Below are positions 36,998-62,186 of a stretch of 64,000 nucleotides of DNA, piece after piece (position 1 is the first letter of the stretch; every line of letters starts with the position of its first letter). This DNA comes from Clonostachys chloroleuca (taxonomy: Eukaryota; Ascomycota; Sordariomycetes; Hypocreales; Bionectriaceae), in NCBI GenBank assembly GCA_037952775.1, contig JBANAY010000003.1:4278001-4342000 (forward strand). The letters run 5' to 3'. The notes beneath the pieces were generated by a model. The model was not told where the DNA came from, made no database searches, and saw only the letters and a program-made list of their open reading frames with translations. The position numbers and the translations under genes are program-made.

Positions 36998-37369
36998 TTG
37001 GATTATAAGTCAGGTAGGACAGCGAGGGACCAGGTCTTCTAACTCGGTATACTTAGTTAGATATAGAACCTAGCATCGAAAAGAGATCGAATGTTTATTC
37101 TTCGAATATAAATCTCGAAATAAGTCCCTCTCTGATATATACACAAGTAAGGAAGTAGATACCAAGGAAGAGGGGTTGGGGTATTTGAAGGGTGTGATGA
37201 TAAGATACCCGCTAATGAGAGGTAACGCCCTAACCGAAGCACTGACTCGTGCCACTTCGCCTCCGCTCCGCATACGTAATTCGCTCATCCGCTCACAACA
37301 GACTTTGAAAAAGACCTTCCCCATGATCCAGCCCCGACTTCCATCGAGGCTTTGCCAGTCCCGTCAGCT
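36998..37369. other. Intergenic, no gene seen
   Basis: AT-rich just after 37040. I looked here for an upstream zinc-cluster exon of the next gene and found none. Confidence 0.5.
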
Positions 37370-39394
37370 ATGATGCCGGGAGAAACAGAACCACGGCAGT
37401 ATAGATTCGTCGGCGCCTACAGCCGCAAGAGACGGCGCCGGAATGCACCGCTCGGCGAAGGCGCGGAGGCCTCACACACACAGCTGCGAGCGTCGACGTC
37501 TGCGTCTGATATCGTAACCGCATCTGCGCCAACTTCCAAGGGTACCATTGAGGAGCAAGGGGGTCATACTACCAGGCACAGCAGCCCACCCCCTGTAACG
37601 ACTTGCGTGCTCCAGGTCCCTCCGCCTCTTGTAGAGGCCGCTCTAGTCGTACAAGAATATGCCCATTCTATTGACAATATACTAATGCCATCAATCTTAC
37701 CTCCTACTGAGGACGCGAACCAGCATGGCCCTGTGGATTGGTCTTACTCATCCTTCATGAACTCTTCATTTGACCCAGCCTTCTCTCCAGCAGCAGCATT
37801 TGACACCCCACACGACCATGCCCAGGTCACGACGCAGCTTGGTGTTGACGTACCACTAAGAAGCGAAACCCCTTCATCCCCTGAGTCATCACAAGACACT
37901 GTCGTCTATCCAGAGACTCCCTCCCACGGCGAACCGCCACCCCAACCCGTGGAAAGTCCTGGAATCGCCCTATCACTTCCCAATCCGCAGCAGATAGTGT
38001 GTAGCAACCGCGTCACGGTTTCAGACCTAGTCGCCCGATGTATGTGCCGTGTCCAGTCCCTACATTGTCTAGCCGGCGTTCTAATATGAGAGTGTAGATG
38101 ACAAGGAGTTCTGCGTCATGCCTCTAACTCATGACTTTGATGCCAACCCGTTTCGCTTCGACACGAAATCCTACCGAAATTCAAAACTCCTATTCCATTC
38201 TATCCTAGCCCTCTCATATAAACATATCAACCGCGAGACCGGCTCCTGCGCCGACGAGGCGAGAACCTATAAGACGAGGGCCTTGCAGATGCTTCACGAT
38301 ACTGAAAATGCGTCAACGGGCACGGCTCTCGCAACAACTTTTCTCGATGCTCTATTGATCATGATGACCCTGGAAGTAAGCTCGAGCTGGCCCCATCCAT
38401 TCCTTGACTTTGCTTTCCCGTAAAGATGCCGCAGCTAAGGACAGTAAAGTGTGCAACTTCAGCCCATGGGCCTTGGACTTGGTATTTGAAACGTGCATAT
38501 AAGATGATGCAAGCTACCAAGTCTCTGAATATCGAGGTAACGCCACGAATGCGTGCGCGAATGGAGATGCTAGTATGGTATGCGATTTAGTCCCAGCATC
38601 CAGCCTTTTTGACAAATTTATCTGACATGACCAGGTGGGACGTCACACTTGCGTTGACTAGCCGCCAGGGCTTCGTGTTGCCAGAATCAGCCATCGTCGC
38701 TCTCTTCAGCCAGGACAAGAGCAAGAACGAGACGTTTTACGACGTGTCAGGCTGCCCCGAGGCTCTATTCCGACACATGATCCGTCTTGGATCTTACGCA
38801 AGAGAGTTTGAGCTCGTGTCTAGCATGACGTGTGCAAAATTTGACATCGAGCCGGTGCTTGAGGTAGAGAAACAAATCACGGAGTGGAGGGACCCGGATT
38901 ACGAGGATCGCCCGGAACAGTACGATTTCACGCTATCTTCTGAACAGATCTGCGACATCGAGGCCATGGCGCAATACAAGGAAGACCTTCATCATTGCGC
39001 CGAGGCCTGGCGGTACTGTCTTCTAATCTACATTGGCCGCGTCTTTCGATGGCAGCGGGATCAGCCGGCCCAGCCGATCCTTGGCTTCCTGGCCCGTAAG
39101 ACCCTCAGACACGTCACTTGTTGTCGCTACACGTCGCAACTCCAGAAGCAGCTCCTTCTCCCTGTGTTCTTGGCGGGCTGCGAGACAAATGATGAGCATT
39201 TGCGCGAAGCCGCGTTGTCGTACTGCAAATGGTGGAGCGACAAGACGAAATACGACATGTTCCTCACAACCCACTCGCTACTGCAAGAGTTCTGGTCTGA
39301 GGACAACCATGAGCCTTGGTGGGGATCATTTTTGGATAAGAAGACGAGGTCGAGCGATGGGAGTGCGGATTCACGACAGTATTTATTTGGGTGA
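37370..39394 (+). CDS. Fungal transcription-factor-domain protein without visible zinc cluster
   Basis: Exons are 37370-38039, 38098-38375, 38450-38577 and 38635-39394; introns are 57-74 nt, all in phase, giving 611 aa. The N-terminus (about 1-215) is disordered, Ser/Pro/Thr-rich, and contains a basic patch (YSRKRRRRNAPLG) but no Cys cluster. The C-terminal two thirds match the fungal regulatory domain: DDKEFCVMPLTHDFDANPF, LLFHSILALSYKHIN, and a distinctive end block QLLLPVFLAGCET and YDMFLTTHSLLQEFW finishing in SRQYLFG. The C-terminal 160 residues are clearly paralogous to the partial gene at the right edge (63507-64000). It could be a regulator that acts through protein contacts, or the zinc exon has been lost. 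Confidence 0.85.
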
Positions 39395-40127: not shown

Positions 40128-41095
40128 ATGGCCACCATGAACACTGTCTTTGCCGGCTACGCCGAACGACAGAAGGCCCTCGAGGCCAGCCAAGCCTCGA
40201 ACCCATATGCCAAAGGCATCGCCTGGGTCGAAGGCGAGCTCGTCCCTTTACACCAAGCCCGTATTCCCCTACTTGACCAGGGTTTCATGCATAGCGACCT
40301 CACATATGACGTCCCCTCCGTCTGGGATGGCCGGTTCTTCCGCCTGGACGAACACCTGGACCGTCTGGATGCGAGCTGCAAGAAGATGCGCCTCCGCCTG
40401 CCTCTTGATCGGGAAACAGTCAAGAAGACGCTATGTGACATGGTCGTCAAGAGCGGTATCCGCGATGCCTTTGTCGAGCTGATTGTCACGCGTGGTCTTA
40501 CTGGCGTTCGTGGCGCTCGCCCCGAGGATCTCCTCAACAACAACCTCTACATGTTCATCCAGCCGTACGTCTGGGTCATGGAGCCCGAGGACCAATATAA
40601 GGGTGGACGCGCTATTGTCGCCCGAACTGTGCGACGAGTCCCCCCGGCTCCATCGACCCAACCATCAAGAACCTGCAGTGGGGTGACTTGGTCCGCGGTT
40701 TGTTCGAGGCGAATGATCGTGGTGCCACCTACCCCTTTTTGACGGATGGCGACGCCAACCTCACGGAGGGATCTGGGTTCAACATTGTCCTGATCAAGAA
40801 TGGCATCCTCTACACCCCTGATCGCGGCGTGCTGCAGGGAATCACGCGGAAGAGTGTTATTGATGCCGCGCACTCTCTTGGCTACGAGATCCGCGTTGAG
40901 CATGTCCCCGTGGAGGCCGTCTATCAGGCCGATGAGATCCTTATGTGCACAACTGCCGGTGGTATCATGCCCATCACCACTTTGGATGATCAGAAGGTTC
41001 AGGATGGCAAGGTTGGCCCCATCACGAAGGCCATCTGGGATAGATACTGGGCTATGCACTGGGAGGACAAATTCAGCTTCAAGATTGATTTTTAA
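40128..41095 (+). CDS. (R)-selective amine transaminase (BCAT-like, fold type IV PLP enzyme), frameshifted
   Basis: The sequence closely follows the fungal (R)-amine:pyruvate transaminase group: [51 protein letters not shown], then [10 protein letters not shown] with the PLP lysine, [15 protein letters not shown] and [15 protein letters not shown]. It has no introns. The reading frame breaks in the C run at 40640-40645: upstream ends RTVRRVPP and downstream continues as [15 protein letters not shown] in another frame. One more C would give a full-length protein of about 322 aa. The lysine lies after the break, so the frameshifted product would be inactive. It is either an assembly error or a new null allele. 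The enzyme normally moves the amino group between (R)-amines or D-amino acids and keto acids. Confidence 0.9.
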
Positions 41096-41759
41096 ATGTA
41101 TGATAGAACTATAAGAAAAAAGTAAAAATAACTACAAGGCATTTGTTGACCTATTTCTCACTGCTGTCGAACAAAGGGATTATGTACGTAGAATGGCGCT
41201 CACTACACTGACACCGTCTACCAGGAGAAGGCAGACTTCCGATCACTACATTTTCATTATTAGCTTGGCAAATTACCCAATGGGTCCCGAAGTCAAGAAA
41301 TATTACTAGCGCTGCTATCCCACGCATGCTTTAATGATGGCGGGCTGTATCACGAGCTCATTTTTGATCCCTCGTCTCCTCACCCCTCAACATGAACCAA
41401 GCCATCGCGAAATAGGAACTTCCAGATTAGGTATTACCGTCTTGTGGGTCCAGGTCTTCAATTCCTATCTGGGACTTAGTTCATCACCCCTGGGATAGAT
41501 ATTGCGGATCACGGTGAGAGCCGGGTTTACCCACACCCATTGGGGCATGGGACACGATTTACAGAACACCAGAAAGCGACATATCTAGAACGATACGATC
41601 ATTCCAGATGAGGCCTAATATTCTGTTTGTTCAGTGAACTCATATAGTAGTGAATTTCTGTAATCTCATCTTCACATCCGCCCAATCCCATCTCAGTTCC
41701 ATTTCACAACACAACCTTACCGAAGAGATAAACAAGAGTAACTATAGTGGACTGCCACC
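41096..41759. other. Intergenic, no gene seen
   Basis: This separates the transaminase from the D-amino-acid oxidase on the same strand. It holds the oxidase promoter and nothing else recognised. Confidence 0.5.
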
Positions 41760-43049
41760 ATGGCTTCTCAAGACAATATCGTTATTGTTGGGTATGTTAA
41801 CACTAAAAAAAATGAAGGAGCTGGAAAGCATTATCTAACATTGATTAGTGCAGGTATCATTGGCCTCGATGTCGCGCTTGTCCTCGCTGAAAGAGGATAT
41901 GGAAAGCAAATCACTGTCATTGCGGAATATCTACCAGGTGACACAGCCATAGCCTACACATCACCGTGGTGAGTACACCTTCCCCTCAAACGGAAAGTCT
42001 TACTAAGAGAGTCTGAAGGGCTGGTTGTAATTTTTCTGCTATCTCTGGTTCGGATGCCAATGCCTTGAAGTGGGATAGGTTGGGATATACGCATCTGAGC
42101 AAGCTTGCCTCGGAAAAGCCTGAAGTAACACATGTCAAACGCACACCGTCCACAGAGTTGTGGGATGACGATGTGCCGCATGAAAAGATTAAGGCCATGT
42201 CCGAGTATCTGGAAGACGTTAGTGGTGACGAATCTAGGATATGGTTACTTCCCAATGCTAACTGATACTGCACAGTTCCGGGTGCTCCCAAACAATGAAC
42301 TGCCACAGGGAGTCAAGTTCGCGGCATCCTTCACAACATTGACCGTAAATGCGCCAAAGCATCTTCTTTACTTGTACAACCGGCTGAGAGACGACTATAA
42401 TGTCCGCTTTGTACGCCAGAAACTTCCGGATATCCAGACCGCCTTCTCCAGCTCCTCCACCAAGGTTGTGTTCAACTGCACCGGCAATGCCGCTCGGACG
42501 CTGCCAGGTGTAGAGGATGCCAAGTGCTATCCCACGCGCGGGCAGGTTTTGTTGACAGCTGCACCCGAGGTGCGCACAAACATGATGCGACACGGCAAAG
42601 ATTACGAAACGTATGTTATTCCCCGACCCAACTCAAATGGGCATGTGATTTTGGGCGGATATATGCAGAAAGGCAATGGGTAAGTGATGATCCCCAGATC
42701 CTGGGTGCTACTGGGTATCTAACCGCTGTTTTTTTTTTGAAGTGATGGATCAACCTACGCGTATGAAACAGAGTCAATTCTGCAACGGACCAAGGAACTC
42801 AGTGAAGAGGTCAGAAGAAGCAACCCGGAGGTCATTATCGCTGTTGCTGGTCTAAGACCATCTCGCGAGGGAGGTGCTCGAGTGGAGAGAGAGACTCTGT
42901 CCATTTCTGGCCAAAAGCGTACAATTATTCACAACTATGGTGCTGGTGGAACTGGCTTTCAAGCTGGGTACGGCATGGCAGTGGATGCTGTGAAGGCTGC
43001 AGAGTCACTGCTTTTGGAGTTGTCAGGAGGGTTTCGCTCCAGATTGTAA
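41760..43049 (+). CDS. D-amino-acid oxidase, peroxisomal (C-terminal SRL)
   Basis: Five exons (41760-41791, 41849-41968, 42019-42217, 42276-42679 and 42743-43049) are joined by introns of 50-63 nt with conserved phase, giving 353 aa. The FAD-binding loop GAGIIGLD spans the first intron. DAO hallmarks follow: AYTSPWAGCNF, VKFAASFTTLTVNAPKHL, VFNCTGNAARTLPGV, YPTRGQVLL, YVIPRPNSNGHVILGGYM and VAGLRPSREGGAR, ending with IIHNYGAGGTGFQAGYG. The C-terminus is GGFRSRL, a classical type-1 peroxisomal targeting signal. The enzyme oxidises D-amino acids to imino acids with release of H2O2. The Cys in WAGCNF replaces a residue that is usually Ala. Gene models that miss the tiny first exon would lose the nucleotide-binding loop. 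Confidence 0.95.
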
Positions 43050-43460
43050 ATGAACGGCGAAATAAATAAACAAAAGCGTCCCATGATTATCTGCAAGGGG
43101 CCAGAAAGTACAGCACATTGGCAATTCTTCTCATTTTGCTATATGCATGGCTTTGTGGACGAAGAGGCATTAGGGTACGAATAACTTGCAACTGAAGATT
43201 TATAATTGCCTAGGCCAAAACCGTCATGTGATACGCTTGTAGCTATTGAACGTATTGTAACCTAGGCAGAATGGTATATCCTCGGTATAAAGAGATAAAA
43301 GCCCGCGATAATGAAAGGCTGTCCCTGTTGTTCTCCCGGTGTTTCTATCCCCAAAGTCGACCGTCTATCTTAGACTTTGATAGAGATGAGGTTGTCGCTA
43401 AAAGGCCGTCAGCGTTATGGACAAGAATCACCAGCGATAAAGAAAAAGGCTCAAAACAAC
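43050..43460. other. Intergenic between convergent genes
   Basis: AT-rich 3' flanks of the oxidase and the MFS transporter. No gene is seen. Confidence 0.5.
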
Positions 43461-45277
43461 TTACAACCGCTTGCCGGTTTCAGACCCAGCATCTTCCACG
43501 CCGTCCATGGTGTCGAAGGCGCGTGTCTGGGCACGGTGCGCCCGAGTAACCTTTATTGCGTTGAGCCAGGAGCCTTCGAAGATCTTATCGACCTCCTCGA
43601 CACTCAGACCCGCGATTTCAGGCACCATCAAGTATATGTAAATCAAGCCGATGACACACCAACCAGCGAAGAAAAGGAAAGCACCCCAGTTGTTTGTGTT
43701 GTGCAAAAGACTGGGAAGAGACTGTTTGATAGCGAAGATGAACAGCCAGTGGAAAGTCTGTCCAACGGCACCACCAAACGAACGGATTCTATCAGGCCAA
43801 AGCTCGCCGCCAAAGACGTATGGTAGGATGAAGAGGCCTAGATATGCACACAACTCGGTCAGCATAGATTCCTAGGTAGCGTCTTTGAAAAGTAGACGTA
43901 CGTGCCGTCTACACTTACCGACAGCGTAGCCAAAGGCATGTACGAAAAGAGCTGCAATAGCAGCCTGGCCAGAGGCGGCATTTGTCTGGCCCTGCTGCTG
44001 GTATTTGATAAAGACAGCAATATAGATATGCGAGATGGTCTGGAAGGCGATTCCGATGAAAAGAGAGCGGCGGCGTCCAACAATATCGATAAAGAAGAAG
44101 GAGGCAATAAGACTAAACCAAAGCTTGGAGAACGCATACATAGAGCTAAGGAAAATGGAATATTGGGTGTCCGTTGAGTGTCCCAAGAGCTTCATGATAG
44201 GGATAAAGTAGCTGGTAACCGAATTGGCACCAGAGAGCTGGGCAAGGGCATAGCACATAGCAACTTGCTGGAGACGACGAAGGTTCGAGCCCACGGTAAA
44301 GGTTTCCTTGGCCACAACCCAGAGGCTGGGCTTGCCACCGAAATCACCGTGGGCTGCGACGATAGATGCTTCCATGTCAGCCAGTTCTCCTATGATACGC
44401 TCGTGATCCCGAGGCAGCTGGCGTAGCTTGGCCATAGTAGCCACCGCCTCCTCTCGACGCCCAACCATCAGCAGCCAACGAGGGGACTCGGTGATGAAGA
44501 AACTAGCAAGGATGCAGAGAAACATAAAGCCAGAGATAGCAGCGGAGGGGATCTGATACTGGACCTTGCTGTTGGGGATGTGCTTTATAATGCCGAGAAC
44601 ACAGAAGTTAGCAGTAGTCAGGGCTATACCCTGGCATACGGTATACCAGGAGGTAAGAAGACCGCGAATCTCTTTTGGCGAGATTTCAGCGATACTCATA
44701 GGTCCGATAACACTAAGGGAACCGATGCCCATCCCGGTGATAATACGTGCACCGTACAGGGTTCCCATATTCGGTGCGAAAATGCAAATAATCTGACCAA
44801 TGATAAAAAGAAGTATGTAAGCCCGGTAGGCCCAGCGACGGCCGATGCTATCATTAGCGAAGAAGGAGAGGGCTGCTCCCATCGCATACCCGATGTAGAT
44901 GATGGAGAGGTAGTTTGAGATAGCGTCAGCATCCGCTCCAGATGAAACTTTGAACTGCTTCTGAAAGCCCGGAAGACTAGGTATCACGGCAGATGCGCCC
45001 TGTTCCCAAGCTGTACACAAAGAAGTTAGCCGGTCTGGTTTTTTTTTCCCAAGTGGTCTCGGGGTAACGCGAGTCTGATCGTTATTTTTGTTGTTGTCAT
45101 TGTCCTCCCTTCTTTTTCAATTTCTCTAAAACACTTACTTAGAGGTATAGCTGACAGGGCGTACAAAAAGGAACTGAACCATAGAGGACCGTTGAAGATG
45201 ATATGGCGAGGAGTCTCCTTGATGCGTTGTGCGTACTTAGCCACAGAAGACTTCTGGAATATTTTTGAGAAACGCAT
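43461..45277 (-). CDS. MFS sugar-porter-family transporter
   Basis: Exons are 45277-45139, 45010-43919 and 43837-43461, with introns of 128 and 81 nt; all phases fit and the product is 535 aa. The start is the ATG giving MRFSKIFQ. Sugar-porter features are WEQGASAVIPSLPGFQ in segment 1, NDSIGRRWAYRAY, SIAEISPKEIRGLLTS, FFITESPRWLLMVGRREEA, DIVGRRRSLFIG, and PYVFGGELWPDRIRSFGG near segment 10, followed by VPEIAGLSVEEVDKIFEG. The region around PYVFGGELWP fits the fungal quinate/lactose/alkyl-sugar subgroup more than hexose carriers. It sits between two amino-acid-oxidising enzymes and a PEX11-like gene; whether it carries a sugar, an acid or an amine is open. Confidence 0.92.
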
Positions 45278-45289
45278 GGTTCCCCCCAA

Positions 45290-45440
45290 AGGTATACGAG
45301 CGACAAGGGAGGGGAAGCAGTATAGGAGGAAGAGGAAGGTGGGAGAAACAAGTAGATGGCAGTTTCAGATTTGTTTCATCTCTTCAACCCGGGAAGGGGT
45401 GCTGTTCAGGAAAAGATAAACGTATTGGAGAAGAAGCGAT
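45290..45440 (-). promoter_or_regulatory. Pyrimidine-rich upstream tract of the MFS gene
   Basis: The plus strand is strongly purine-rich here (GGAGGAAGAGGAAGG-type sequence), so the coding strand of the minus-strand MFS gene has a CT-rich tract just before its ATG. Such tracts are common near transcription start sites of filamentous fungi. Confidence 0.35.
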
Positions 45441-46040
45441 GAGGAAAAGGGGGATGAAGGACTGTCTTGTCGCGACTTTTTAAAGTCGTCAGGCCTCAAG
45501 CCAAGCGGGCATGATAAGTGCCTTGCTTTTCCCCAGATTACGGATTACCATGCAAAGGTCACAATCTAGACGGAGATCGTGGGGTGCCGTGGCACCGCAG
45601 TCCTTAGGCCGGGAAAAGCCTTCAGTCATGATGGTTATGGAAGTTTCCGGTGTAGTGGCCGGAAAGATACGCTGGGGCCTGTGTCCCGGAAGTATACGGG
45701 CAGCCAATCATGAAAATCCGTAGCCTCCCCCGTGCTTATCAAGACCTTTTAGGACTGGCGTGGATCCAGACCAGTCAGTCAGTATTATGAACCTGGACGA
45801 GCAGCCGCCATTATTGAGGTACCGTGTATTCCCCTAATTTTATTTGTCTAGTTACATACAAAAGTCAGTTCCATAGTGAGTCTGTTTGTACGTCCTCCAA
45901 GATTGAACTACTTACTAATGTTATGTACCGATATTCCTTATATTCCTTACGCTTATGTCTTCTTCGTCTTATTAGTCTTGCTCTTCTTATCTGTCTCCCT
46001 TGTTATTCGCCCTTCAGGTCTTTCTCATCTGGTATTCACT
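45441..46040. other. Intergenic between divergent MFS and PEX11-like genes
   Basis: Shared upstream region. The open frame extends left of 46041 to 45876, but that part is hydrophobic and unlike the family, so I place the PEX11-like start at 46041. Confidence 0.4.
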
Positions 46041-46938
46041 ATGGTTATCTCAAACCAGTACTTTCCGGAATGCTACTCCCGTTATCTCGCCACCACACTT
46101 GGGCGTGATAAGCTACTGCGTCTAGTTCAGTATGCGTCTCAAGTGTGCTCCTGGTTCCTCCGCATTCGAGGCCTGGACCTCGCTGGCTGTAACCGAATCA
46201 AGGGCCATATGGCATTGACGCGCAAGGTTCTGCGCCTGGGCAAGACAGTCGATTTCTGGTTCGCGGCATTGGACGCCACGAAGCGAGCGGGAACTACCGG
46301 ATTTGCGGTGCCTCAGTTTGCCTCCATCACTAAATCTCTGTCATTGATGTGCTACTGCACCCTTGACGCGGCTACAATCCCAGAGGCAATGGGATTCCCT
46401 GTCCGTAAACACACGAAGAAGCTCCAAAAGCAGGCCATCGGGTTCTGGTGTCTCGCTATTGTTTGCAGCCTCGTTGTCCGGGTGCACACTCTATACACGT
46501 CTCCAAAGGTCAAAAAGGAGCTTGTTACCGAAGAGGCCAAAAAGCCCGAGACAGAACAAATCAAGAGGTTCGTATCGCCATTTGAGAGACTGAATGAAAG
46601 TGAAGAAGATGAAAAGGATCTCCACATATCAGATATTCTTCCGAGTGTCTCCCTCCTCTTCCAATGGCCCCTTGTGCTGATTGTTAGGCCACAGCATGTA
46701 TGTAACCACAAAGAAACTAGTCTTTTCAGATCTGTGTGATCTATGGATTTGTATTTCTAGTATGGGGTTTGTCAAGTCCAACGACGGCCTGCTAGGCCTT
46801 TGCGGGATGACTAGTAGTTTAATTGGGGTGTCTCAGCAGTGGAAGGCAACGCGTTGTAGACTTAATCACGAACAGGATGAATGGCCACCATGGCTCAGTT
46901 CATGGCCTTGGCAAGATCATGGGGAAATGTATGGTTAA
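46041..46938 (+). CDS. PEX11-like peroxisome proliferation protein
   Basis: Exon 1 (46041-46644) and exon 2 (46721-46938) join in phase 1 across a 76-nt intron and encode 273 aa. The N-terminus, YLATTLGRDKLLRLVQYASQ, is the most characteristic PEX11 segment. It is followed by MALTRKVLRLGKTVDFW, which matches the amphipathic membrane-binding helix region. The middle has a hydrophobic segment and an acidic stretch (ESEEDEKDLH). The C-terminus has KSNDGLLGLCGMTSSLIGV, the typical last membrane segment, then QQWKAT. PEX11 proteins drive elongation and division of peroxisomes. A PEX11 relative between two peroxisomal FAD oxidases is notable. The exact donor site of the intron is my choice among several. 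Confidence 0.78.
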
Positions 46939-47552
46939 TCAGGCGGCAATAATATAATTACTGACTAGATGGTTCCAAAGGATAATCCCTCTCCTGAGTT
47001 CACACCACGACAGGCCGCCAGACACACGTTGATCTACGACACGGCCAAGCCCAAAGAGTGGAGGATCAAGGCTAGCCTACATTTTAACTTTTGTTTTCAT
47101 GCCATACATGTATGCTGGCTTGACTTAGCGAATTTCAGTCCATCAATAATATAATAACGAACTCATTCTAAACGGATAAAAAGACCTCTCCTTTACGTTG
47201 ACGGATTCTACAATAGTGAACAACGAATTACCGCTAGAAAGTGAGCCATATAGGGTAAGATCATCAAGAGTGGATGATGGGAAGTTTCCGAGCAAACTGA
47301 GAAGCTAATTTGGTTGGCAAATCACGTGGAGAACAAACATGCAGTGACTTATCCGGAAACTTCCAGACGATCCATCGGAAAATGGATACCTTTACATGAT
47401 GGTTTTGATCAAGGGCGCCGCCTCTGTAACAAACCGCCGTCGTCTGTCTTACCCCTCGTCTCGATCCTCCATTCCCCATCCCCACGTGTTATCATCCTGA
47501 AAACACTCGGAGAGACAGAGAGGACCTTGTACGGGTCTGTGCAGGTGACGCA
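46939..47552. other. Intergenic, no gene seen
   Basis: A 61-codon plus-strand frame (46969-47154) directly after the PEX11-like stop has no family match. The right part is the promoter of the zinc-cluster gene. Confidence 0.4.
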
Positions 47553-50081
47553 ATGCAGCCTCCGAGAACGGGCGCAGGTCACGCCCGACGTCGCCGAGGG
47601 CGCAACAATGGTCCAAGGGCCCTGCAGGCATGTCTGCACTGCAAAGAGAAGAAACTCAAGGTGAGTTCCATTGTTAAACCACGCTGCCTCTTGGGGCACA
47701 CTGCATAACCTTGTAGTGATGATGATGATGATGATGTTGGTGATGAGCTGTAATGACACGAGGCTACGATATTAGTGTGATGACCAGGTGCCGGCTTGCA
47801 GTCATTGTAAGAGGCTGAGTATCTGTAAGTCCCGTCCTCCATCCACATAGATCACGTACCTTATCAACCACCTTGAGGCACATCTCCTTGTAGCCGTCCT
47901 CTAACACGCCTGTTCTAGCATGTCTCGTTCAAGATTCCCAGACCAGCCGCCCCAGACCTCGAAACTATGTCGAGCTTCTCGAGGATCGCGTGGCTAGCTT
48001 GGAACACATATCAACAACCACCACGGCAAGGACAGACTCCTCCTCCGTTCATCATTCGGGGACGGCGCAAAGCACGAGCAACGCCCCTGGGAGCACACCT
48101 TCGACAAATTACTACACTTCACCAGAGCAGGGAGGGGGACCCAGCAGCGGCGACCTGCCATCCAGAGTTGGGATGCTGGATTTCCGCACACTGCAGATAG
48201 AACCGCAGTACCTGGGCTCTTCGTCTGCCTTTGCCTTCTCGCGCATCATAAGCCTCCCCCTGAACAGAAACCTGCCACCGTCAGCAGCAACAACAGGGTC
48301 AGCATTGGGGGACCAGCCAAGCTTGACGGGGACGCCATGTCCTCTACCAGACTATGACACTGCCATATCGTTGAGCAATGCCTACTTCAAATACATACAA
48401 CCACAGTATCCCTTCCTGCACGAACCAACCTTTCGGACCTGGGAGGCCAAGGTGTACGGTGCGTCACCAGAATCTATTCATACAGAGCTTTTTGGACAAG
48501 CGCTGTTCTTCCTCAATATGGTAAGAAGCCGTGATCACTATCCAGGTACCAGGCACGTTATTCATACAAAGCAGGCAGGGCTGTTGACTCTCATCGCTTT
48601 TTATAGGTTTATGCCGTCGCGGCTCTCCTGAAAAATAATACAGATGCTTTCGCTGAGGTATATCTGCATCTCAATCTCCCCTAATTTGCCTTTGCCATCA
48701 TCTGAGCTTGTAGGGTGCTTGAAATAAGCTAACCATCCCTCTTTTCCATTGCAGCAACTTTACACGTCCGCTCAGCTGCACTCAGATGCACTGGCAAATG
48801 ATAGCTTGGAGTCCATTCAGGCTATCCTTCTCTGTGCCATGTACTCTCTACGGTCTTTGACCGGGCCTTCTCTTTGGTATGAATGAAAAACGCAACCTGG
48901 CCAAAGCCCTATCACCCTCGTCATGATCATCATCTTACTTATACCACACTGTATATAGGGAGCTATCAGGTCTTGCTTTACGAAAATGCATCGGACTAGG
49001 CTACCATCGCAGCGCTAAACGCCACGCTCCCCCAGCCAACATGTTACGGCACGAATTGCGCAAGAGGGTATTCTGGGTAGCCCAAGGCCTTGACTGCACC
49101 ATGGCCCTCCGTCTTGGGAGACCCCTCGGGATCCCTCTGCAGGAAATCGACGCCGAGCTTCCTGCTGATGTCAACGACTCCTGCATCTCCGAGATGGGAA
49201 TCATAGCGGAGACTGGGGCTTCGAGCGAGCCAGGCCAGCTCGGCAAGTCGACCATTACACATGCCAACCACGTTTTCAGGCTTCGCATCATACAGGCCCG
49301 GATCTGCACCTCTCTATTCTCTGATACGGCTAGGCTGAGTGTCCACGACACGGCATACCAGAGTCGAATACAACAGCTGCGCGCGGATCTAGATCAGTGG
49401 CATGCGACAGCCTCGCCTTCAACAAAACCATTAGCGGTCGATGATCTCACCATGTTCAATAGCACTGAATGGTACGACATGAACTACAGCTATACCATTC
49501 TTCTACTCTATCGCAATCAATTAGAAGCGTATGAACCATCGTCGGACCACATATTCTCGGAATGCGTACGTGCTTCCCGGAGTGTGTGCCAGGGGTATCG
49601 CCGTTTATACATCGGGACTTACAGGCGTTACACTTGGGGTACCTTATCCTGCCTGTTCTTGGCCGGCCTGGTGTATCTGCACTGTCTCTGGACCGTCCCT
49701 TCTCCCTGGGATCTCGTGGCTCTCGACGATTTCAGTAAAACATGCACAGAGTGCACCATGGTCCTTGTGGCCATATCAGAAGGGTGGCGAGGGGCGGCAC
49801 CGTACCGGGACACGTTTGAAGTCCTAGCTAGCCGAACCATGTCCATGTTGATCAATAGGGACCGATCTTTGCCACTCCAGGATTTTCCTCCGCCAAGCTC
49901 CTCGACCAATCTTAGAGGAGAAGGGGGAGGAGGGGGAGGTGGAGGGGGAGATCAGGTGGACTGGAACAACTGGCTGAGGGTTGCCATAGAGGCAGGGACT
50001 TTGGATGGCCTAGATGGTTTCTTTGGAGGGTTTATTGAAGACTTTGGGAGAATTGACGATATCGCCGGTTCCATTTTGTAG
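47553..50081 (+). CDS. Zn2Cys6 transcription factor
   Basis: Six exons: 47553-47660, 47776-47824, 47919-48520, 48607-48657, 48755-48876 and 48959-50081; all phases close and the product is 684 aa. The zinc cluster is encoded across the first three exons: ACLHCKEKKLK ends exon 1, CDDQVPACSHCKRLSI is exon 2, and SCLVQDSQTS opens exon 3, giving all six cysteines. A linker (NYVELLEDRVASLEH) that could dimerise follows. The fungal regulatory domain shows YFKYIQPQYPFLHEPTF, AILLCAMYSL, KCIGLGYHR and KRVFWVAQGLD. The C-terminal region has a run of Gly around residues 630-640. It is likely the nuclear regulator of the surrounding amine/amino-acid genes, inferred from position only. Confidence 0.92.
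47716..47745 (+). repeat. GAT/ATG trinucleotide microsatellite inside an intron
   Basis: About six to eight tandem TGA/ATG-type trinucleotides, slightly interrupted, lie in intron 1 of the zinc-cluster gene, which splits the DNA-binding domain. Confidence 0.7.
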
Positions 50082-50659
50082 CTCTTGTACTATCTCTCCT
50101 CTTTCCCCTGGCACATATATGTATCTATCTACTTGGACCATGAAGCGTGACTGAATTTAGTTTCTAAAGCTCATCCAGACTGGGGTTTTCTGCCCTTGAT
50201 AAGCTTCATCACTTGGTGTAGTTGTGTCAGCACGTCTTAATGCCCGAGATAAGAGATTAGAAATGGCGACCAATAAAAGTTAATCCCGAGGAATCTGGAT
50301 GATTACATTATTTAATGATACACGTTTGCCACTCACTACCTTGTCTTCAGATGTTCGCGGCAACCGGAAGAAGCCCCAGACAAACACCAAGGCCGGCAAG
50401 TGGAGTCGGAAACTTCCGAGCATCCCCGACCTTCTTTCGGGGCTGGGACGACCCGGAGAAGAGACTTAGGTCCATAGAGCGAAAGAGTGGGCAAGATGGT
50501 TCTCTCTTCGAATTCCGTTTACTTTGGTATAAAGGTCGACACTGGTTCCAAACAAAACCTTTGTTGCAATGACGTCCATCACATAACCTCTAGCGGGATC
50601 TATCTTTACTCTCGGATCATCCTGCGCGAACAACAACGGCCACAACGTCAAAGACAACG
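50082..50659. other. Intergenic, no gene seen
   Basis: Promoter region of the second FAD oxidase. Nothing else is recognised. Confidence 0.5.
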
Positions 50660-51769
50660 ATGAGCGATCAATCTGACCCTATTATCGTCATCGGAGCCGG
50701 CGTCGTCGGTGCCTCCATCGCGTGGCACCTGACCAAGGAGAAGAAGAAGGATGTCATCATCATCGCAGGAGAGGTGGGCGGTGTGGTGACACCAAAGTCG
50801 TTTTCCTGGCTCAATGCAGCCGGCACCACCACGAAGTTCTACTATGATTTCCGACGTCGCTCCATGGCTCGTTGGGTTGAGATGAGCAAGGAGCTGCCCG
50901 ACCTCCCAATCTACTGGGGAGGCACCTTGACCTGCGACAAGACTCCCTCCGAGCGCACCGAGTTCCACGAGCGTCAGCAGAAATGGGGCACCAAGATTGA
51001 GCGCCTGGGCAAGGGAAGCCTGGCTGCGGTCGAGCGGGAAGTGGACGATGCCCAGTTCGCCTCGGCTGAATGGGGCCTGTATGTTCCCGACGAGGGCACG
51101 ATCGAGGCACATGATGCCGCAGCTATGCTCGTTGCCGATGCCGAAGCACGAGGTACCAAGGTCCTCCGCACGACTGCCACTGGATTCCTGAGGTCGAGCG
51201 ACGGTCGGAGAATCGCTGGAGTGGTGACGGGCGCTGGGCACATACGTGGTAGCCACGTCGTTGTAGCTGCTGGTCTTGCCAGCGTCGCATTGCTGGCAAC
51301 GGAGAATATTAGGCTTCCCGTCAAGGGCACCGAGGGTCTGATTGTCAACACGACGCCTAGCAAGAAGCGATACCTAAACACGCTGCTCCGCTTGCCGGCA
51401 ATGCACCTGCGCCAGACACTCGATGGGCGCATCCGCTTCGCTGCCAGCTTTTCGGGCGGTCCACCGGGGGATGACCCGGAAGTCACTGCCAGAGAACTCT
51501 TCAAGGAGATGCAGAAGCTGTTCAAACGGGGGCATGAGCTAGAGTTCGGCGGCTATACAGTGGGAGTACGTCCTGATCCGGAGGATGGATATCCCATCCT
51601 TGGCTCTACGGGCTTGGATGGGATGGATGTGGCGTGCATGCACTCTGGTGTGACGAATGCTGCGCTTGTTGGTCAACTTCTGTCCAAGAAGATTCTATAT
51701 GGCAACGAAGATCCAATGCTTCATTCCTATCGACTTGATAGGTTTCGGGAAAGTCGTGCAAAGCTTTAG
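50660..51769 (+). CDS. FAD-dependent amino-acid/amine oxidase (DadA/DAO superfamily), peroxisomal (C-terminal AKL)
   Basis: A single exon encodes 369 aa. The N-terminal dinucleotide-binding fold is IIVIGAGVVGASIAWHL. Next come PKSFSWLNAAG, an active-site region typical of the glycine/D-amino-acid oxidase group, then VVVAAGLASVALLA and YTVGVRPDPEDGYPILG, with MHSGVTNAALVGQLL near the end. The protein ends SRAKL, a good type-1 peroxisomal targeting signal. It would oxidise an amino acid or secondary amine (sarcosine-like or D-amino acid) and give H2O2 and an imine. It is not a close copy of the oxidase at 41760: the two come from different branches of the superfamily but share the predicted location. 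Unlike that gene, it has no introns. Confidence 0.93.
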   Translation: MSDQSDPIIVIGAGVVGASIAWHLTKEKKKDVIIIAGEVGGVVTPKSFSWLNAAGTTTKFYYDFRRRSMARWVEMSKELPDLPIYWGGTLTCDKTPSERTEFHERQQKWGTKIERLGKGSLAAVEREVDDAQFASAEWGLYVPDEGTIEAHDAAAMLVADAEARGTKVLRTTATGFLRSSDGRRIAGVVTGAGHIRGSHVVVAAGLASVALLATENIRLPVKGTEGLIVNTTPSKKRYLNTLLRLPAMHLRQTLDGRIRFAASFSGGPPGDDPEVTARELFKEMQKLFKRGHELEFGGYTVGVRPDPEDGYPILGSTGLDGMDVACMHSGVTNAALVGQLLSKKILYGNEDPMLHSYRLDRFRESRAKL

Positions 51770-52140
51770 CTTATGTCGTTAATCGGTAGCAAGCAGCCTG
51801 TGAAGGCTTGATATCCTATACTTCACTAGATTGTTAGACTTTACGTGCGACTTGTGGAGCTTGTGAGCCAATTACACCATTATTTTCCTTTCGGTCTAAA
51901 AATTTATAGGCAAATCCCATATCAGTGGTGATAAAGGAAGTAGCATATAATGTAGCTAGATTTAACGTAGGTATGCTGGCCTAAGAAAACATAGCCAGGA
52001 GGCATGGATGACCAATAGACGCCGACCCATCCTCACTTTCCAATCAATTCATGGCAAATCCTCAAGGCTGAGACCCTGCCATGCTCAGTATTCCCACGAA
52101 CGATGTTTCATGAATACTGTGGAAGTAGTAACAAAAGTCC
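51770..52140. other. Intergenic between convergent genes
   Basis: AT-rich 3' flanks of the FAD oxidase and the permease. No gene is seen. Confidence 0.5.
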
Positions 52141-54123
52141 TTAGGAACTTTGGACATTCTGCTCGCTGAGCATGCTCCAGTCAATGTTCGGACCCTCAAA
52201 TGCACGGCGAACCGAGAACCACAAGGCCACTAGAATGATACCCATAAACCCAAGGACAACGGAAACGCTAGAATAGTGTCAGTTGTTGTTCCTGTACTAA
52301 AGAATTACACGGTGAACTTACTAATTCATTGACGCAGCTGACACCGGGATGACATTGGGGAAACAGATGAACACGCCGATGGTGGTAACCCAGAGTGGGG
52401 TCCAAGCATTGCAAAGGTAGCCGCAGACTTTGCCAAGCTTGAATGGTCGATCAGGGAGTCTGCTGCGGCCATGGAACAAGGTAATGGCCTGTGGAACAAC
52501 ATACGAGATGTTGACTCCAAGGACAGCGGTGATGATGATGGAGTTGAAGGCCTGCGAGCTAGCAAGGTACAACACGCCGTAAATGATACAGAATGCCACG
52601 GAGAGGAGGGTGGTGCGGACAGGGAATTCAAACTTGGGAGAGATATGGTTCCAGTAGTTAGAGTATGGAAGCCCGCGCTGGATTCAATAGTTAGCTTCAA
52701 GTAAGACAGATGGGCCATTCGTGTTACATACGTCTCTGGAGAATGCCCATGTAAGTCGGCCGCAAGTGATCCACTGGGAAGGCATGCACGCTATTTCGGA
52801 TCAGCTCTGTCCTCTATACTACTTAGTGAATATGAACTTACTATAAAAGAGCACTACAAGGATTCCCTGGAGGCCGAGAGCAGCTGCCTCACTTCCAGTG
52901 GCCTGATAGAAAGCTTCAAGGCTCGGAAGGTGGGCACTACGAACTGCGTCAAGATCCTTGATGCAAAACATCATGGCAATTATGAACGGAACCGAGGTGA
53001 CTAAACCAATGAGCAGCGTAAGGTTCCTAAGTCGGTTAGTTTGGTAATGTTTGGCAGGATGGGAAAGGACTCACATCGCCTTAGGGATGGCCTTTCCAGG
53101 GTGGTGCATCTCCTCTGCAACGTGGATGACGGCATCCATACTGGCAAAGGCGTACATCGCATTGCCCACGCTCATGATCCAGGCAACGCCATCAGGCCAC
53201 CCACTAACTCCGTCAAACTTGACCAGGAAGCTGGGGTGGTTGTATTCCTTGCACATGGCAAGGATCGTAACGGTAACAATAACGAATCCGGCAACAGACA
53301 AAAAGAGGCATGTTTCGGTCCACTTGCCAAGATGGCGCTGAGGGATTGTGAAGATGGGAATTACTATGGGGAATTAGCTGCCGTTGTCTCTTCTCACGGA
53401 TATTTAACTAATATCGCGGTATCTCCTGTTTGGGAAGCGAACTCACAGGTTAGAAGGATCAGTGCTACGTATAGCAAGAATGAATGCCATTGTTGAGGTT
53501 CGTAGTCGGGATTCGCGAATACTATCATGCCGATGATGCACTGGACGTTGTTGGAGATGCCGGAGCAGGTAATCACCCACCACCCCAGGACACTGATAGT
53601 TCCAACGGCGAATGCGGCGAACTTCTTGTGTTTCTTCGGAGCAAGGATATACGTGAAGTGGTACTGGCCTAGAAGTTACTCAAGTTAGAATCAAGAAGTA
53701 TAGCTAAGAGTAGAATACTCACCCCCAGACGATGGAAAAGCTGAAGCTTGTTCAGCGAGCCCAAGAACAACGAGCCACTGTACAGCGCATGCGACGATCA
53801 GCCCAAACACGGTTGCTTGAGGTCCGCCGTAGAGTAAGCTCTGCCCAAAGCAGCTAGCATAGGATAGCCAGGAATTGGTGATACTGCGCGAGGTGAGGAG
53901 GTGTCAGGGTCGATCATGCGTTGCGGGGGAATGTGAGGAGTCAGAAATGGGATGCCACGTACCTGAAACCAAGTCCAAGGGTTCCGAGAAGGTTAAAGGA
54001 TCTCTTTAGGACCGGAACATGGCCTTGAGCCATCAGAATGTTGTCGTCGACATCCTCAACCTTGCCGACGCCAACGTCCGACTCATTGCAGTTGGACATA
54101 TCTTTCGTAATTTCTTTGCTCAT
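52141..54123 (-). CDS. APC-family amino-acid/choline permease
   Basis: I resolve eight exons: 54123-53963, 53883-53723, 53668-53447, 53363-53075, 53026-52842, 52790-52732, 52677-52322 and 52267-52141. All introns close in phase and give 519 aa. The start is MSKEITKDMSN. The sequence is that of the amino acid/polyamine/choline permeases: LKRSFNLLGTLGLGF before segment 1, SYASCFGQSLLYGGP, LAELASAFPSSGGQYHFT, IHVAEEMHHPGKAIPKAM in the cytosolic loop, and RGLPYSNYWN after segment 8. It has about 12 membrane segments. The closest known types are fungal GABA or choline permeases. As a plasma-membrane importer it could supply substrate to the neighbouring oxidases and transaminase. An earlier TTG- or ATG-type start is possible but less likely. 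Confidence 0.92.
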
Positions 54124-54621
54124 GATGGATATCAAGACAGCGAGTTGGGAGAAGAAAGTAGTTGTTGCTTGAATGGGGTGACTGAGGAAGTGACTGCTGA
54201 GTGATGGAACGCTGGGGTTGCAAGAGGCGACGAAACACGGCCTTTTTACCTTGAAGACCAATCTTCACTCGGCTATCTCTAGCTCCTCCCCGTCACAGTC
54301 TGGTAGCCATCTATCCGGGGCCAAGACTGGTCGATAAGGTAGCCCTGGTCCACCCCCACAACATATCAATGCCAAGGAGTGTGGGGAAGCTAGACGGCAA
54401 GCTGAGTCAAGCAAGATTAGACGGATCACTCGGACTCTCACAGTAGGAGATCGCACGGTGTGGCGGCCTGCCCTCGTCATTGGCCGCCGAACGCGGAGAG
54501 CCCTTAATACCTATTTAGGAAAAACGGTACGTCTCTCCAGGCTTAAAAGATGGCCAGTTGCCTGCTACACAACTCAAACTCCTCACTAGCGAGCGAGAAT
54601 ATCACTGGACGAGTGGATACA
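54124..54621. promoter_or_regulatory. Divergent promoter between the permease and acetyltransferase copy 2
   Basis: The two genes start back to back here, so the region should control both. The open frame of the acetyltransferase extends back to an ATG at 54550. I prefer the ATG at 54622, because the family N-terminus begins just after it. Confidence 0.45.
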
Positions 54622-55455
54622 ATGGCCGCGCAGCAGAAAGATAACGAGATGCTTGAGCTCGGCAGGGGGCTGCGTGGAACCCCCTGGTGTGAAGAGTACG
54701 AGAAGATGATCTCTGGAATGTTGTACGTTGTTTTCCCAGCCGCAATTTGTTCCTGTCCAACCATGTACTGAGCCCTCCCTTGGCTTGCAGGTATAACCCC
54801 TTACACCCGAGACTTTTGGAGGGGCGTCACAATGCCCGCTGCAAGGCCTTCAAATACAACAATCTGGATCCAAACAGCGGAGACTACGAGCAGATTGCTG
54901 ATAAGCGCTCTGAGTTACTCTCCGACATGCTTGGCAAGGTTGGCACAGGCACTTGCATCGAGACACCTTTTTACCCAGACTACGGCTGCAACGTGTCGAT
55001 TGGTGTGAACTGTTTCATGAATTTCGGGTCAGTCTTTGAAGTAGTGTACGGGCTGGTAACAAGATTCACTGTTGACTAACACACCAACAAATAGGTTGAC
55101 CATCCTGGACACAAGCCTTGTCATTATTGGTGACAGGGTGCAGATGGGCCCCAATGTTCACATATACACTGCTGGGCACGAGACAAGTGTGCTTTCCCGC
55201 ATCAAGTTTGTAGAGTTTGGCCACCCCATCCGCATCGAGGATGACTGCTGGATTGGGGGGAATGTCACCATTCTTCCTGGGGTTACTATTGGCCGGGGAT
55301 GCACTGTTGGTGCCGGCGCGACTGTGACAAAGAGCTTGCCACCCTACTCCATCGCCTTGGGGTCGCCGGCGAGGGTCGTTAAGACAATTCCCTCGGTTGA
55401 GGAGGAGCTCGCCGATCCCGGCAACCCGTACCGCAACATGCCAGATAGAGATTAG
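54622..55455 (+). CDS. Maltose O-acetyltransferase-like enzyme, copy 2
   Basis: Exons are 54622-54722, 54791-55027 and 55095-55455; introns of 68 and 67 nt keep phase and give 232 aa. Domain order is as in copy 1: an N-terminal PWCEEYEKMISGMLY segment, then NPLHPRLLEGRHNAR, and a hexapeptide-repeat helix (DTSLVIIGDRVQMGPN, then DCWIGGNVTILPGVTIG and CTVGAGATVTKSLPP) with the catalytic His in TAGHETS. The last intron of both copies falls at the same place (before the VILD or LTILD strand), which supports common origin. This copy has one more intron. It transfers acetyl from acetyl-CoA to a sugar or other hydroxyl. It is divergent from the permease. Confidence 0.93.
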
Positions 55456-55804
55456 AGAGATACTTGGAATGAATACAACTCTACGATGGCTTGGCCCAAA
55501 TCTAAGAGAACGGCGTGATGTAGCTTGAAGCTTAACTCGACATATCACTTTCTGATGATCCTTGGTTCAGTCACATTAAGTAAGGAAAAAGACATTACTG
55601 TATGCATATTACCCGCTTAATATCTCTTGAGAATATGATTGTAAACTTTCCATCCGTGACGTTCACATATTTCCTGGCTTTATTCCCGCTCAACATTTGT
55701 TGGTTCTCACACCTAACGAAGAACAGCAATGAGCAAATTTCTGATCACATTCTGATGTAAGTTGTATGGAAAAATTTAGAGCTAGCTTATGCATCGCAAT
55801 ACCT
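55456..55804. other. Intergenic between convergent genes
   Basis: AT-rich 3' flanks, with no gene seen. Confidence 0.5.
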
Positions 55805-56224
55805 CTAGTTGCCTGCGATGGCTTCTGCTTGCAGTTCTAGATGCATGCCGGGGTTGACAAGCGCCGCAACCACCACCGAGGTCAATGTTGGCGTGTGACC
55901 GGGATATCGCTCTCGAAACAGGGCCAGCATCTTAGCCTCGTACTCGGTATTTGTGAAGTACGCTACCAATTTATGCGCGGTTGCAAGACCTTGACTAACT
56001 CCAGCATTCTTGAGAGCTGCGTCGAGGCAGTCGAATACAGCATTGAACTCGTCTTCAATAGAGCTGGTGACTAGTTGTCCAGTTTTAATATCAACCCCAA
56101 CATGTCCTGTTGTGATGACTAGAGTTCCGCCCAGGGGAATCGCCACTGTAGACGCCAACGAAGCGGAGCGCAGCATTTCGCCCACAGGACCTGGGGTGAA
56201 TTGATATCGAATCGAAGAAGCCAT
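55805..56224 (-). CDS. RidA/YjgF/YER057c-family enamine/imine deaminase
   Basis: A single exon encodes 139 aa. The family pattern is clear: GGTLVITTGHVGVDIKTGQLV, a central FDCLDAALKNAGVS, LVAYFTNTEYEAKM and the C-terminal TLTSVVVAALVNPGMHLELQAEAIA. RidA proteins hydrolyse reactive enamine/imine intermediates formed by PLP enzymes and amino-acid oxidases. The Arg that contacts the substrate carboxylate in canonical RidA (in an xRxxV context before the last strands) is not in the usual place; TLTSVVV replaces it, so this may be a divergent subgroup. It lies close to two FAD oxidases and a transaminase that make imines. No mitochondrial or peroxisomal signal is evident. Confidence 0.9.
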   Translation of the reverse strand: MASSIRYQFTPGPVGEMLRSASLASTVAIPLGGTLVITTGHVGVDIKTGQLVTSSIEDEFNAVFDCLDAALKNAGVSQGLATAHKLVAYFTNTEYEAKMLALFRERYPGHTPTLTSVVVAALVNPGMHLELQAEAIAGN

Positions 56225-60053: not shown

Positions 60054-62186
60054 CTACTGTTTATGTTGTACCACCTTTATAATCTCGTCGACAACTGAAG
60101 GATCTGACAACGTTGATACGTCTCCAAGCTGGTCAGCTTCACCCATTGTCACCTTGCGTAGAATACGACGAATGATCTTTCCAGAGCGAGTTTTGGGGAG
60201 ATCTATGACGACGTATATAGTTTTCGGTGCTGCAAACGGCCCAATGGATTTGCGAATGTGGAGCTTCAACTCATGGCTAAGAGACGCATCTCCTAGTACC
60301 ATATCGGCTTGTTTCTTTAGGCTCACGAAGGCGACAACAGCCTGTCCAGTGATCTCGTCAGCTACGCCCACCACTGCCGACTCGGCAACGGCTGGGTGAG
60401 CAATTAGAGAAGATTCAATCTCCGCCGTCGTTAGTCGATGACCACTGACATTGATGACATCGTCGACGCGGCCTCGGATCCAAAAATAGCCGTCTTCATC
60501 GCGGCTAGCACTGTCACCAGTGAACTAGATTAGGCTCATACGTATCAGTAAACCCTTCAATGAGTAGTCAGAACCTTTTTTGGGTTAGCTATTAACTCAC
60601 GTAGTATCCTTTGTACGCGCTCAGATATGTCTCTTGAAACCTACGGTGGTCGCCCAATATGGTTCGGGCCATACTAGGCCAAGAGGACTTGAATACAAGA
60701 ACTCCATCCACATTTGGCTCTGGAATATCCTGTCCTGTGACAGGATCAACTATAGCAGCATCAATTCCAAAGAACGGCAAACATGCGGCACCGGGCTTTG
60801 TAGGGGTAACGCCGGCGAGAGGTGTGATGACATGGGAGCCAGTCTCCGTTTGCCAGTATGTCTTACCTCAGGTTAGTCAATATGCTTCTTGATAACGATT
60901 AGGAATAAATCGATCCGCAGGGTGACTTACATCTACCACATGGCATCTGCTTTTCCCGACTTCTTCATCATACCATTTCCAGATATTTGGAGCAATGGGC
61001 TCGCCTACGGAACCGAGGACGCGAAGGTGTTCCATCTTGAAGCTGGACGGGGAGGACCCTGCTCTCTTGAGGAGTCGCAGGGCCGTCGGTGCCACGTAAA
61101 AGTGCGTAACACGGTGCTTGTCGATGATTTCCCAGTATCTTGAATGAGTTGGGAAGGTTGGAGTTCCTTCAAAAACCACGGTGGATATACCTAGAAGTAA
61201 AGGCGCATACACAACATATGTATGGCCGGTGATCCAACCCACATCTCCGCCACAGAAGTAGCGGTCGTTGTCATGAATATCAAAAACGTATTTTCCGGTA
61301 GAAGCAGCCCCTACCAAGTAGCCTCCTGTAGTATGAAGGATCCCTTTTGGTTTCCCGGTGGATCCTGATGTGTACAGGAGAAACAAGGGATCCTCCGAGT
61401 CCATGGATTCTGCTGGACAATAAGCGGGCCATTTCTCTACCTCCTCGTGCCACCAATAATCTCGTCCCTCTGTCCATGAAACGTCGATCTTACCAGCCTT
61501 GAATACCAGGGTCTTCAAGTCGTGTACATCAGCCAACGCCTCATCAACTATCTTTTTCAAACCTATGATCTTGCCACCACGGCAGCTGGCATCTGACGTG
61601 ATAATGATCTTGCTTTTTGAATCAACCACGCGGTCTTTGATAGAACCGGATGAAAAACCAGCAAATATGACGGAGTGAACAGCTCCAATCCGAGCACACG
61701 CAAGGATTGCCACCAACGCTTCAGGAATCATGGGCATGTATATGGAAACAACATCCCCTTTTCGGACTCCCAAATCTTTCAAAACCCAGGACATTTTGCT
61801 GACCTGCTTCAATAGCTCGATGTACGTCAAGCTGCGCGGATCATCCCCGTCATCGGTCTCATGGATAATGGCGTATCTGTCCGGATATTTCAGGGCATGG
61901 CGATCCACACAGTTGACGCATGCGTTGAGCTTTCCGCCCAGGAACCATGAAATATTACCCTTGTCAAGGGAGCCGTACTGAACAGCATCAAAATCAGAGC
62001 TCCACTTGATCAGCTCCCGTGCGACATTACCCCAGAATTTTGCCGGGTTGTTAATAGACTCGGCGTGCATTCTGAAATATTCACCCATGCCTTTGGATGG
62101 TAAGAAATGTGGTTATTACGGGATAAGGGAGAGTGTAACATACTGCCGATATGAGGCTGACTTGGGTGATCTATTGCTGATGGCAT
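60054..62186 (-). CDS. Acetyl-CoA synthetase
   Basis: Exons are 62186-62144, 62090-60931, 60861-60601 and 60524-60054; introns of 53, 69 and 76 nt keep phase and give 644 aa. The short first exon ([14 protein letters not shown]) completes the family N-terminus. ANL-superfamily signatures are [41 protein letters not shown] and the catalytic-lysine loop [16 protein letters not shown]. The [18 protein letters not shown] opening is diagnostic for acetyl/propionyl-CoA synthetases. It converts acetate, ATP and CoA to acetyl-CoA. It is somewhat shorter than the usual fungal housekeeping enzyme and sits beside hydrolases and acetyltransferases, so it may be a second, pathway-linked copy. There is no C-terminal peroxisomal signal. 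Confidence 0.94.

Follow-up and report, generated by a model that had tools for sequence, protein, structure and literature searches.

In a window of 64,000 nucleotides from the ascomycete Clonostachys chloroleuca (the whole stretch analysed, C3:4278001-4342000 of a 59.4-Mb genome in four contigs), four neighbouring genes appear to form a self-regulated module that extends from position 43461 to position 51769. They encode a transporter of the major facilitator superfamily (MFS), a PEX11 paralogue, a Zn2Cys6 regulator of the PPR1 type, and a flavin adenine dinucleotide (FAD) amino-acid oxidase carrying a tail of the type 1 peroxisomal targeting signal (PTS1) kind. We put the probability that this four-gene module is the real unit at about 60%. 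Its best reading, drawn from the gene families and their shared promoter word, is that of a module which takes up an amino acid or amine and oxidises it in peroxisomes, equipped with a PEX11 of its own. An original prediction made on the same DNA had gone further, drawing eight genes from a transaminase to a Rid-family protein into a single D-amino-acid/amine pathway. The four genes of the core are as follows:

43461..45277, minus strand: sugar-porter-type MFS transporter, 535 amino acids in 3 exons (Sugar_tr, 3.8e-73)
46041..46938, plus strand: PEX11 paralogue, 270 amino acids in 2 exons, the intron placed by hand and uncertain (PEX11, 7.2e-43)
47553..50081, plus strand: Zn2Cys6 regulator, 684 amino acids (Zn_clus, 6.9e-8; Fungal_trans, 5.4e-31)
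50660..51769, plus strand: FAD amino-acid oxidase of the glycine oxidase / D-amino-acid dehydrogenase type, single exon, 369 amino acids (DAO, 2.9e-41), ending in SRAKL

What, then, holds these genes together? The exact 11-base word CGGAAACTTCC is found in the common promoter of the MFS and PEX11 genes, in that of the regulator and in that of the oxidase, and thus ties the four genes together beyond chance. Its four sites are:

45639..45649, minus strand: promoter of the divergent MFS and PEX11 genes, whose ATGs lie 372 and 402 bases away
47280..47290, minus strand: regulator promoter, 273 bases from the ATG
47354..47364, plus strand: regulator promoter, 199 bases from the ATG
50407..50417, plus strand: oxidase promoter, 253 bases from the ATG, the next base being the G that completes CGG-N6-CCG

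Four copies thus lie inside 4.8 kb in the cluster, against 25 in the whole genome, where the copies outside the cluster are never closer together than 61 kb. The reversed word, used as a control, has 50 genome copies and never more than 2 inside 5 kb. Once low-complexity words are excluded, CGGAAACTTCC is the sole 11-mer of the window with at least three copies inside 5 kb. Of 1158 order-3 Markov sequences modelled on the window, only one holds any 11-mer four times inside 5 kb (0 of 60 in a smaller first run), while some 11-mer triple occurs in 276. All four sites are intergenic, though only 24% of the block is, and they stand 199-402 bases from the ATGs. Each of them reads CGG-N6-CC, and one is a full CGG-N6-CCG.

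The regulator encoded within the block fits these sites. Its gene model contains the C-x2-C-x6-C-x6-C-x2-C-x6-C zinc cluster, and the best solved relative of its DNA-binding domain, searched with the first 311 amino acids, is PPR1 (1pyi, E 7e-12), with an alignment that spans the zinc cluster and continues into the PR-YV--LEDR linker. In this class of regulators the linker sets the spacing of the sites, and both PPR1 and UaY bind CGG-N6-CCG. A PPR1-type domain together with the CGG-N6-CC spacing makes the in-block regulator the natural candidate reader of CGGAAACTTCC, and two of the four sites belong to the regulator's own promoter.

The gene families, the AKL end of the oxidase, the clustered motif, the kind of DNA-binding domain and a tail-less paralogue of the oxidase are read directly from the DNA; regulator binding, induction, import, the substrate and the part of PEX11 in proliferation we infer from them, as follows. 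An inducer, probably the substrate imported by the MFS porter, would activate the regulator, which would bind CGGAAACTTCC in its own promoter, a positive autoregulation, and also in the common MFS/PEX11 promoter and in that of the oxidase. The oxidase would be imported into peroxisomes, where it would oxidise an amino acid or an N-substituted amino acid and make hydrogen peroxide, while PEX11 would enlarge or multiply the organelles. That the whole amounts to a catabolic cluster with its own organelle-scaling gene, in which a self-amplifying regulator switches on a transporter, a tagged oxidase and a private PEX11, is a more tentative proposal, to which we give somewhat less than an even chance. 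The original prediction had likewise linked oxidation to peroxisome proliferation, and this part of it is favoured by the PTS1-type ends, PEX11, the regulator and the common motif; its single eight-gene pathway is not.

Several points weigh against the module. The 10-base word GGAAACTTCC was spotted four times by eye before any testing, and it was lengthened from 10 to 11 bases after the common preceding C had been seen; the chance model, moreover, is Markov sequence and not other real windows. The clustering holds for the exact word only: with at most one mismatch, the 10-mer has 5 matches in the window versus 4.33 expected, and 49 of 100 shuffles reach 5. The sole single-mismatch place in the window (42417) lies inside the coding sequence of a D-amino-acid oxidase (DAAO) gene. 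Nor is CGGAAACTTCC enriched genome-wide (25 copies versus 50 for the reversed control), and three of the four sites are not full palindromes, their next bases being A, C and A. Another 21 copies are scattered elsewhere in the genome, several within open frames. Finally, the window PEX11 could be an ordinary ascomycete PEX11B located here by coincidence and not an additional copy, and this possibility is the main route by which the private-PEX11 reading could fail.

The copies of CGGAAACTTCC outside the cluster may reflect chance or a wider regulon. A Pfam scan of 10 open reading frames (ORFs) at 7 of these 21 loci found among others a divergent promoter between aldehyde dehydrogenase (ALDH) and PhyH genes, the vicinity of a P450 gene and the 5' region of an MFS gene; no peroxin family was matched by these 10 ORFs. 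At the first of these places (C3:23860292-23863302), a single CGGAAACTTCC lies between the divergent ALDH and PhyH-domain genes, and from its position this locus is a possible distant target of the cluster regulator. The full palindrome CGGAANNTTCCG has 36 occurrences in the genome, of which the cluster has one, and so does not by itself make up the signal. A duplicated cluster was considered and rejected: seven 9.9-kb loci (L057-L063), which cover the paralogue of the oxidase, the best paralogue of the DAAO, two pairs of DAAO and Rid genes and the other three PEX11 loci, contain no CGGAAACTTCC with one mismatch or fewer. Other 10-mers shared over three promoters were also rejected, the divergent pairs MFS/PEX11 and permease/acetyltransferase having been counted twice through their common upstream sequence. 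HGATAR words number 0-6 per upstream stretch.

The oxidase of the module contains a DAO domain with a GVRP region, presumably the one that carries the carboxylate-binding arginine, and matches the glycine oxidase / D-amino-acid dehydrogenase type. Its closest solved relatives are glycine and D-amino-acid oxidases (7fgp, 8.1e-20; 1ng3, 2.5e-15), followed more distantly by D-amino-acid dehydrogenase, sarcosine oxidase and dimethylglycine dehydrogenase. All 14 of its NCBIfam matches are under the cut-off (ThiO, 72.1 of 250.8 bits; D-amino acid dehydrogenase PRK00711, 64 of 383). Its C-terminus SRAKL is of the PTS1 type, and the enzyme is probably peroxisomal. A single close paralogue exists in the genome, 51-52% identical (the third match falls to 24%); located at C3:8.247 Mb (L057:4655-5722), it ends in RFKE-TGA exactly where the AKL copy continues with SRAKL. 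From this alignment, the PTS1-type tail is either a gain in one copy or a loss in the other, and the sister oxidases, one with the tail and one lacking it, provide a clean natural comparison. Read-through of the paralogue's stop codon to a hidden PTS1 was ruled out, as only SNK and a stop follow the TGA. Modelling the structure of the AKL oxidase on an alignment of two sequences yielded a mean predicted local distance difference test score (pLDDT) of 32.7, and the model was not used. One scan of bacterial and archaeal genomes with a single query returned 133 pattern matches to this oxidase, none of which was confirmed as a relative.

As to PEX11, the window copy has a full domain (profile 5-222 of 222). 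Four loci of the genome score over the Pfam PEX11 cut-off, namely the best-scoring one at C3:25.59 Mb, which is presumably the canonical PEX11, the window copy, the divergent third at C3:10.46 Mb, and a copy that in-frame stops mark as decayed (L063, C3:23227563-23228276); four further places score under it. The window protein shares 31.6% identity with the canonical one and 22.8% with the third, and those two share 25.4%. In most filamentous fungi, at least three PEX11 genes are believed to be present (PMC4517885); ascomycetes have up to five (PMC9603656), and the numbers in published fungi range from two to five (PMC9603656, PMC4517885). On these numbers rests an alternative that we consider unlikely, in which the neighbourhood is due to chance, PEX11 being the ordinary PEX11B and the catabolic genes unrelated members of families expanded in this genome. 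Three PEX11 loci without inner stops, plus the decayed one, mean that the window copy could be the expected third, and Rid and DAAO-like genes are abundant in the genome. Such a chance neighbourhood does not account for the CGGAAACTTCC that the divergent MFS and PEX11 genes have in common with the regulator and oxidase genes, nor does it sit well with the 31.6% identity to the canonical copy as against 18.1% between PEX11B and PEX11A of M. oryzae, a value obtained by a different method (PMC4517885).

The other alternative, which we hold to be equally improbable, is that of one D-amino-acid/amine catabolic cluster reaching from the transaminase to the Rid protein, with the DAAO and the AKL oxidase working as parallel peroxisomal oxidases. 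It would bring in the following features around the core:

40128..41095, plus strand: neighbour, class IV (R)-amine transaminase, frame-broken in the assembly (Aminotran_4 in both halves)
41512..41523, no strand assigned: single CGG-N6-CCG site with a different core in the DAAO promoter, 248 bases upstream of the ATG
41760..43049, plus strand: possible member, DAAO, 353 amino acids in 5 exons spliced by hand, with the PTS1-type end SRL
52141..54123, minus strand: neighbour, AA_permease_2 transporter, 489 amino acids, automatic 8-exon model
54622..55455, plus strand: neighbour, hexapeptide O-acetyltransferase (Hexapep match; gene model uncertain)
55805..56224, minus strand: neighbour, Rid-family protein without the catalytic arginine, no PTS1/PTS2-like signal

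The introns of DAAO, PEX11 and the regulator's zinc cluster were spliced by hand, those of the MFS porter and the permease by an automatic splice search, and Pfam matches were obtained for all five models. Most of the gene families named in the original prediction are borne out in this way: the MFS porter, the amino-acid permease and the regulator by Sugar_tr, AA_permease_2, and Zn_clus with Fungal_trans; the PEX11-like protein by its full-length match (7.2e-43); the second FAD oxidase at 50660-51769 by its AKL end, read directly; and the DAAO ending in SRL by the hand model and Pfam. The hexapeptide acetyltransferase, which sits between the permease and Rid genes, was absent from that list. 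Two oxidases with PTS1-type ends near an amino-acid permease speak for the wide cluster. Besides the DAO fold and the SRL end, the DAAO has matches to the solved structures 7ct4 (1.4e-42) and 1c0i (6.5e-36), and its GLRP and YVIPRP align in the latter, the GLRP arginine and the YxIPRP tyrosine being characteristic DAAO residues. The CGG-N6-CCG site at -248 of its promoter also favours membership, but there are 11 such sites in the 64 kb, which makes it weak evidence. Exact CGGAAACTTCC is absent from the upstream stretches of DAAO, transaminase, permease, acetyltransferase and Rid alike. DAAO and permease are possible members of the module.

The two outermost genes fare less well. Searched separately, both halves of the transaminase match the solved enzyme 4cmd (listed as AMINOTRANSFERASE) at E ~1e-93, an entry that we take to be the (R)-selective amine transaminase of Nectria haematococca. 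The window gene cannot be read through in a single frame, which is lost between VRRV and GSID where there is a run of C, and the break is either a real lesion or an assembly (homopolymer) error. Its second half has only one other match in the genome, a distant one (27%), and the gene has neither a targeting signal nor CGGAAACTTCC upstream. The (R)-amine transaminase of the original prediction thus stands as to its family, by Aminotran_4 and its kinship with 4cmd, but in this assembly its role as a functional partner is not supported. The Rid protein has HTPTLTS where its solved relative 2b33 has HRPARS, that is, a leucine for the arginine. This conserved residue (Arg105 of E. coli TdcF) is required for imine hydrolysis; its change nearly abolishes the activity in tested RidA proteins, and subfamilies devoid of it presumably have other functions (PMC4433059). 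With the catalytic arginine absent, the label "imine deaminase" is unsupported, and there is no PTS1/PTS2-like signal or upstream CGGAAACTTCC either; the imine-removing step once assigned to this protein is not supported.

The wide cluster does find an echo elsewhere in the genome, where DAAO-like and Rid loci are closer than random placement gives. The genome has 39 Rid and 35 DAAO-like matches, which manual merging brought down to 34 and 21 loci, and with families this abundant neighbourhood alone proves little. Assuming uniform placement of the loci, which ignores gene-rich regions, 2 of the 21 DAAO-like loci lie within 5 kb of one of the 34 Rid loci (0.11 expected, p 0.007), the same 2 of 21 figure holds within 10 kb (0.24 expected, p 0.025), and the count rises to 3 within 15 kb (0.35 expected, p 0.0045), the distance from which the window pair is counted, and to 4 within 20 kb (0.48 expected, p 0.00025). 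Two pairs are tight. In one (L059, C1:4886589-4888424), a Rid protein with HRPARS is paired with a DAAO-like protein ending in SHL; in the other (L060, C3:7559087-7559987), an apparently decayed DAAO-like stretch with 6 stops accompanies a Rid match with a stop, beside an amino-acid permease and a class I/II aminotransferase. The arginine position could be read by pattern in 15 of the 29 Rid loci fetched, and the arginine is present in 5. There is thus some support in the genome for oxidases and Rid proteins going together, but the Rid protein of the window is of the wrong kind.

A variant concerning the substrate, compatible with the four-gene module and in our view rather doubtful, would replace D-amino-acid catabolism by another pathway, in which the MFS protein transports a sugar-like conjugate and the oxidase cleaves a C-N bond of an N-substituted amino acid (opine-like or glycated-amino-acid-like): the porter does belong to the sugar-porter family (nearest solved structure STP10, 7aaq, 5.6e-22) and the oxidase is nearest to glycine oxidases, with its weaker sarcosine oxidase and dimethylglycine dehydrogenase matches, but the sub-threshold NCBIfam scores speak against it.

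Some other genes of the window may be mentioned. A second sugar-acetyltransferase-like gene (33834-34496, Mac domain) lies about 20 kb from the Hexapep gene at 54622-55455. Regulator-like genes at 37280-39394 (Fungal_trans_2) and 63510-63998 flank the region, and their C-terminal ends look alike by eye. On the minus strand, 60057-62112 has the appearance, by eye only, of an acetyl-CoA synthetase paralogue.

The abundance of fungal peroxisomes is generally regarded as responding globally to fatty acids or methanol, by way of dispersed regulons. If the four-gene module is real, one small locus would both send an oxidase to the peroxisome and enlarge that compartment on demand, and such a compact PEX11-oxidase-regulator cluster would make pathway-specific peroxisome scaling testable as one 8-kb block. 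No catabolic cluster with its own PEX11 was recognised in a limited literature search that left most subscription journals outside, which is weak evidence of absence, and no description of RidA with DAAO in fungi was recognised in it either. The original prediction knew of no described cluster that includes its own PEX11 and RidA members, a view that stands to that extent; the parts do have precedents, in FarA/pexK and in the bacterial Rid-oxidase clusters.

The closest parallel is the FarA regulon. FarA and FarB of Aspergillus and CTF1 of Fusarium are Zn2Cys6 factors that act on CCTCGG in fatty-acid metabolism, and FarA activates pexK/PEX11, so that a Zn2Cys6 factor drives PEX11 and peroxisomal oxidation there as is proposed here (PMC5068947). 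The window differs by its PPR1-like regulator, its contiguous genes and its amino-acid-type oxidase; CCTCGG occurs neither in the 763-base MFS/PEX11 intergenic stretch nor between PEX11 and the regulator, and once between the regulator and the oxidase. The purine and pyrimidine regulators UaY and PPR1 share with the window regulator the zinc cluster, the linker and the CGG-N6-CC spacing, a comparison limited to the DNA-binding domain, whereas the gene neighbours are different. The hxn nicotinate cluster of A. nidulans resembles the module in placing co-regulated catabolic genes beside an inducible regulator, but this regulator is a Cys2His2 protein, and no PEX11 was noticed in the available part of the source (PMC5746545). 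In bacteria, the dad locus (DadA, DadX, DadY) and the Rid-amine oxidase clusters place a FAD amino-acid dehydrogenase or amine oxidase beside a Rid protein, as in the window (PMC9714295, PMC4433059), DadY possessing the relevant arginine that the window protein lacks. Upregulation of PEX11 during growth on hydroxyaromatic compounds is described in Candida parapsilosis (PMC8929692). As far as gene content allows one to judge, the comparison suggests that the parts are known, both a PEX11 under a catabolic Zn2Cys6 factor and clusters with their own regulator, and that their combination in one cluster may be new.

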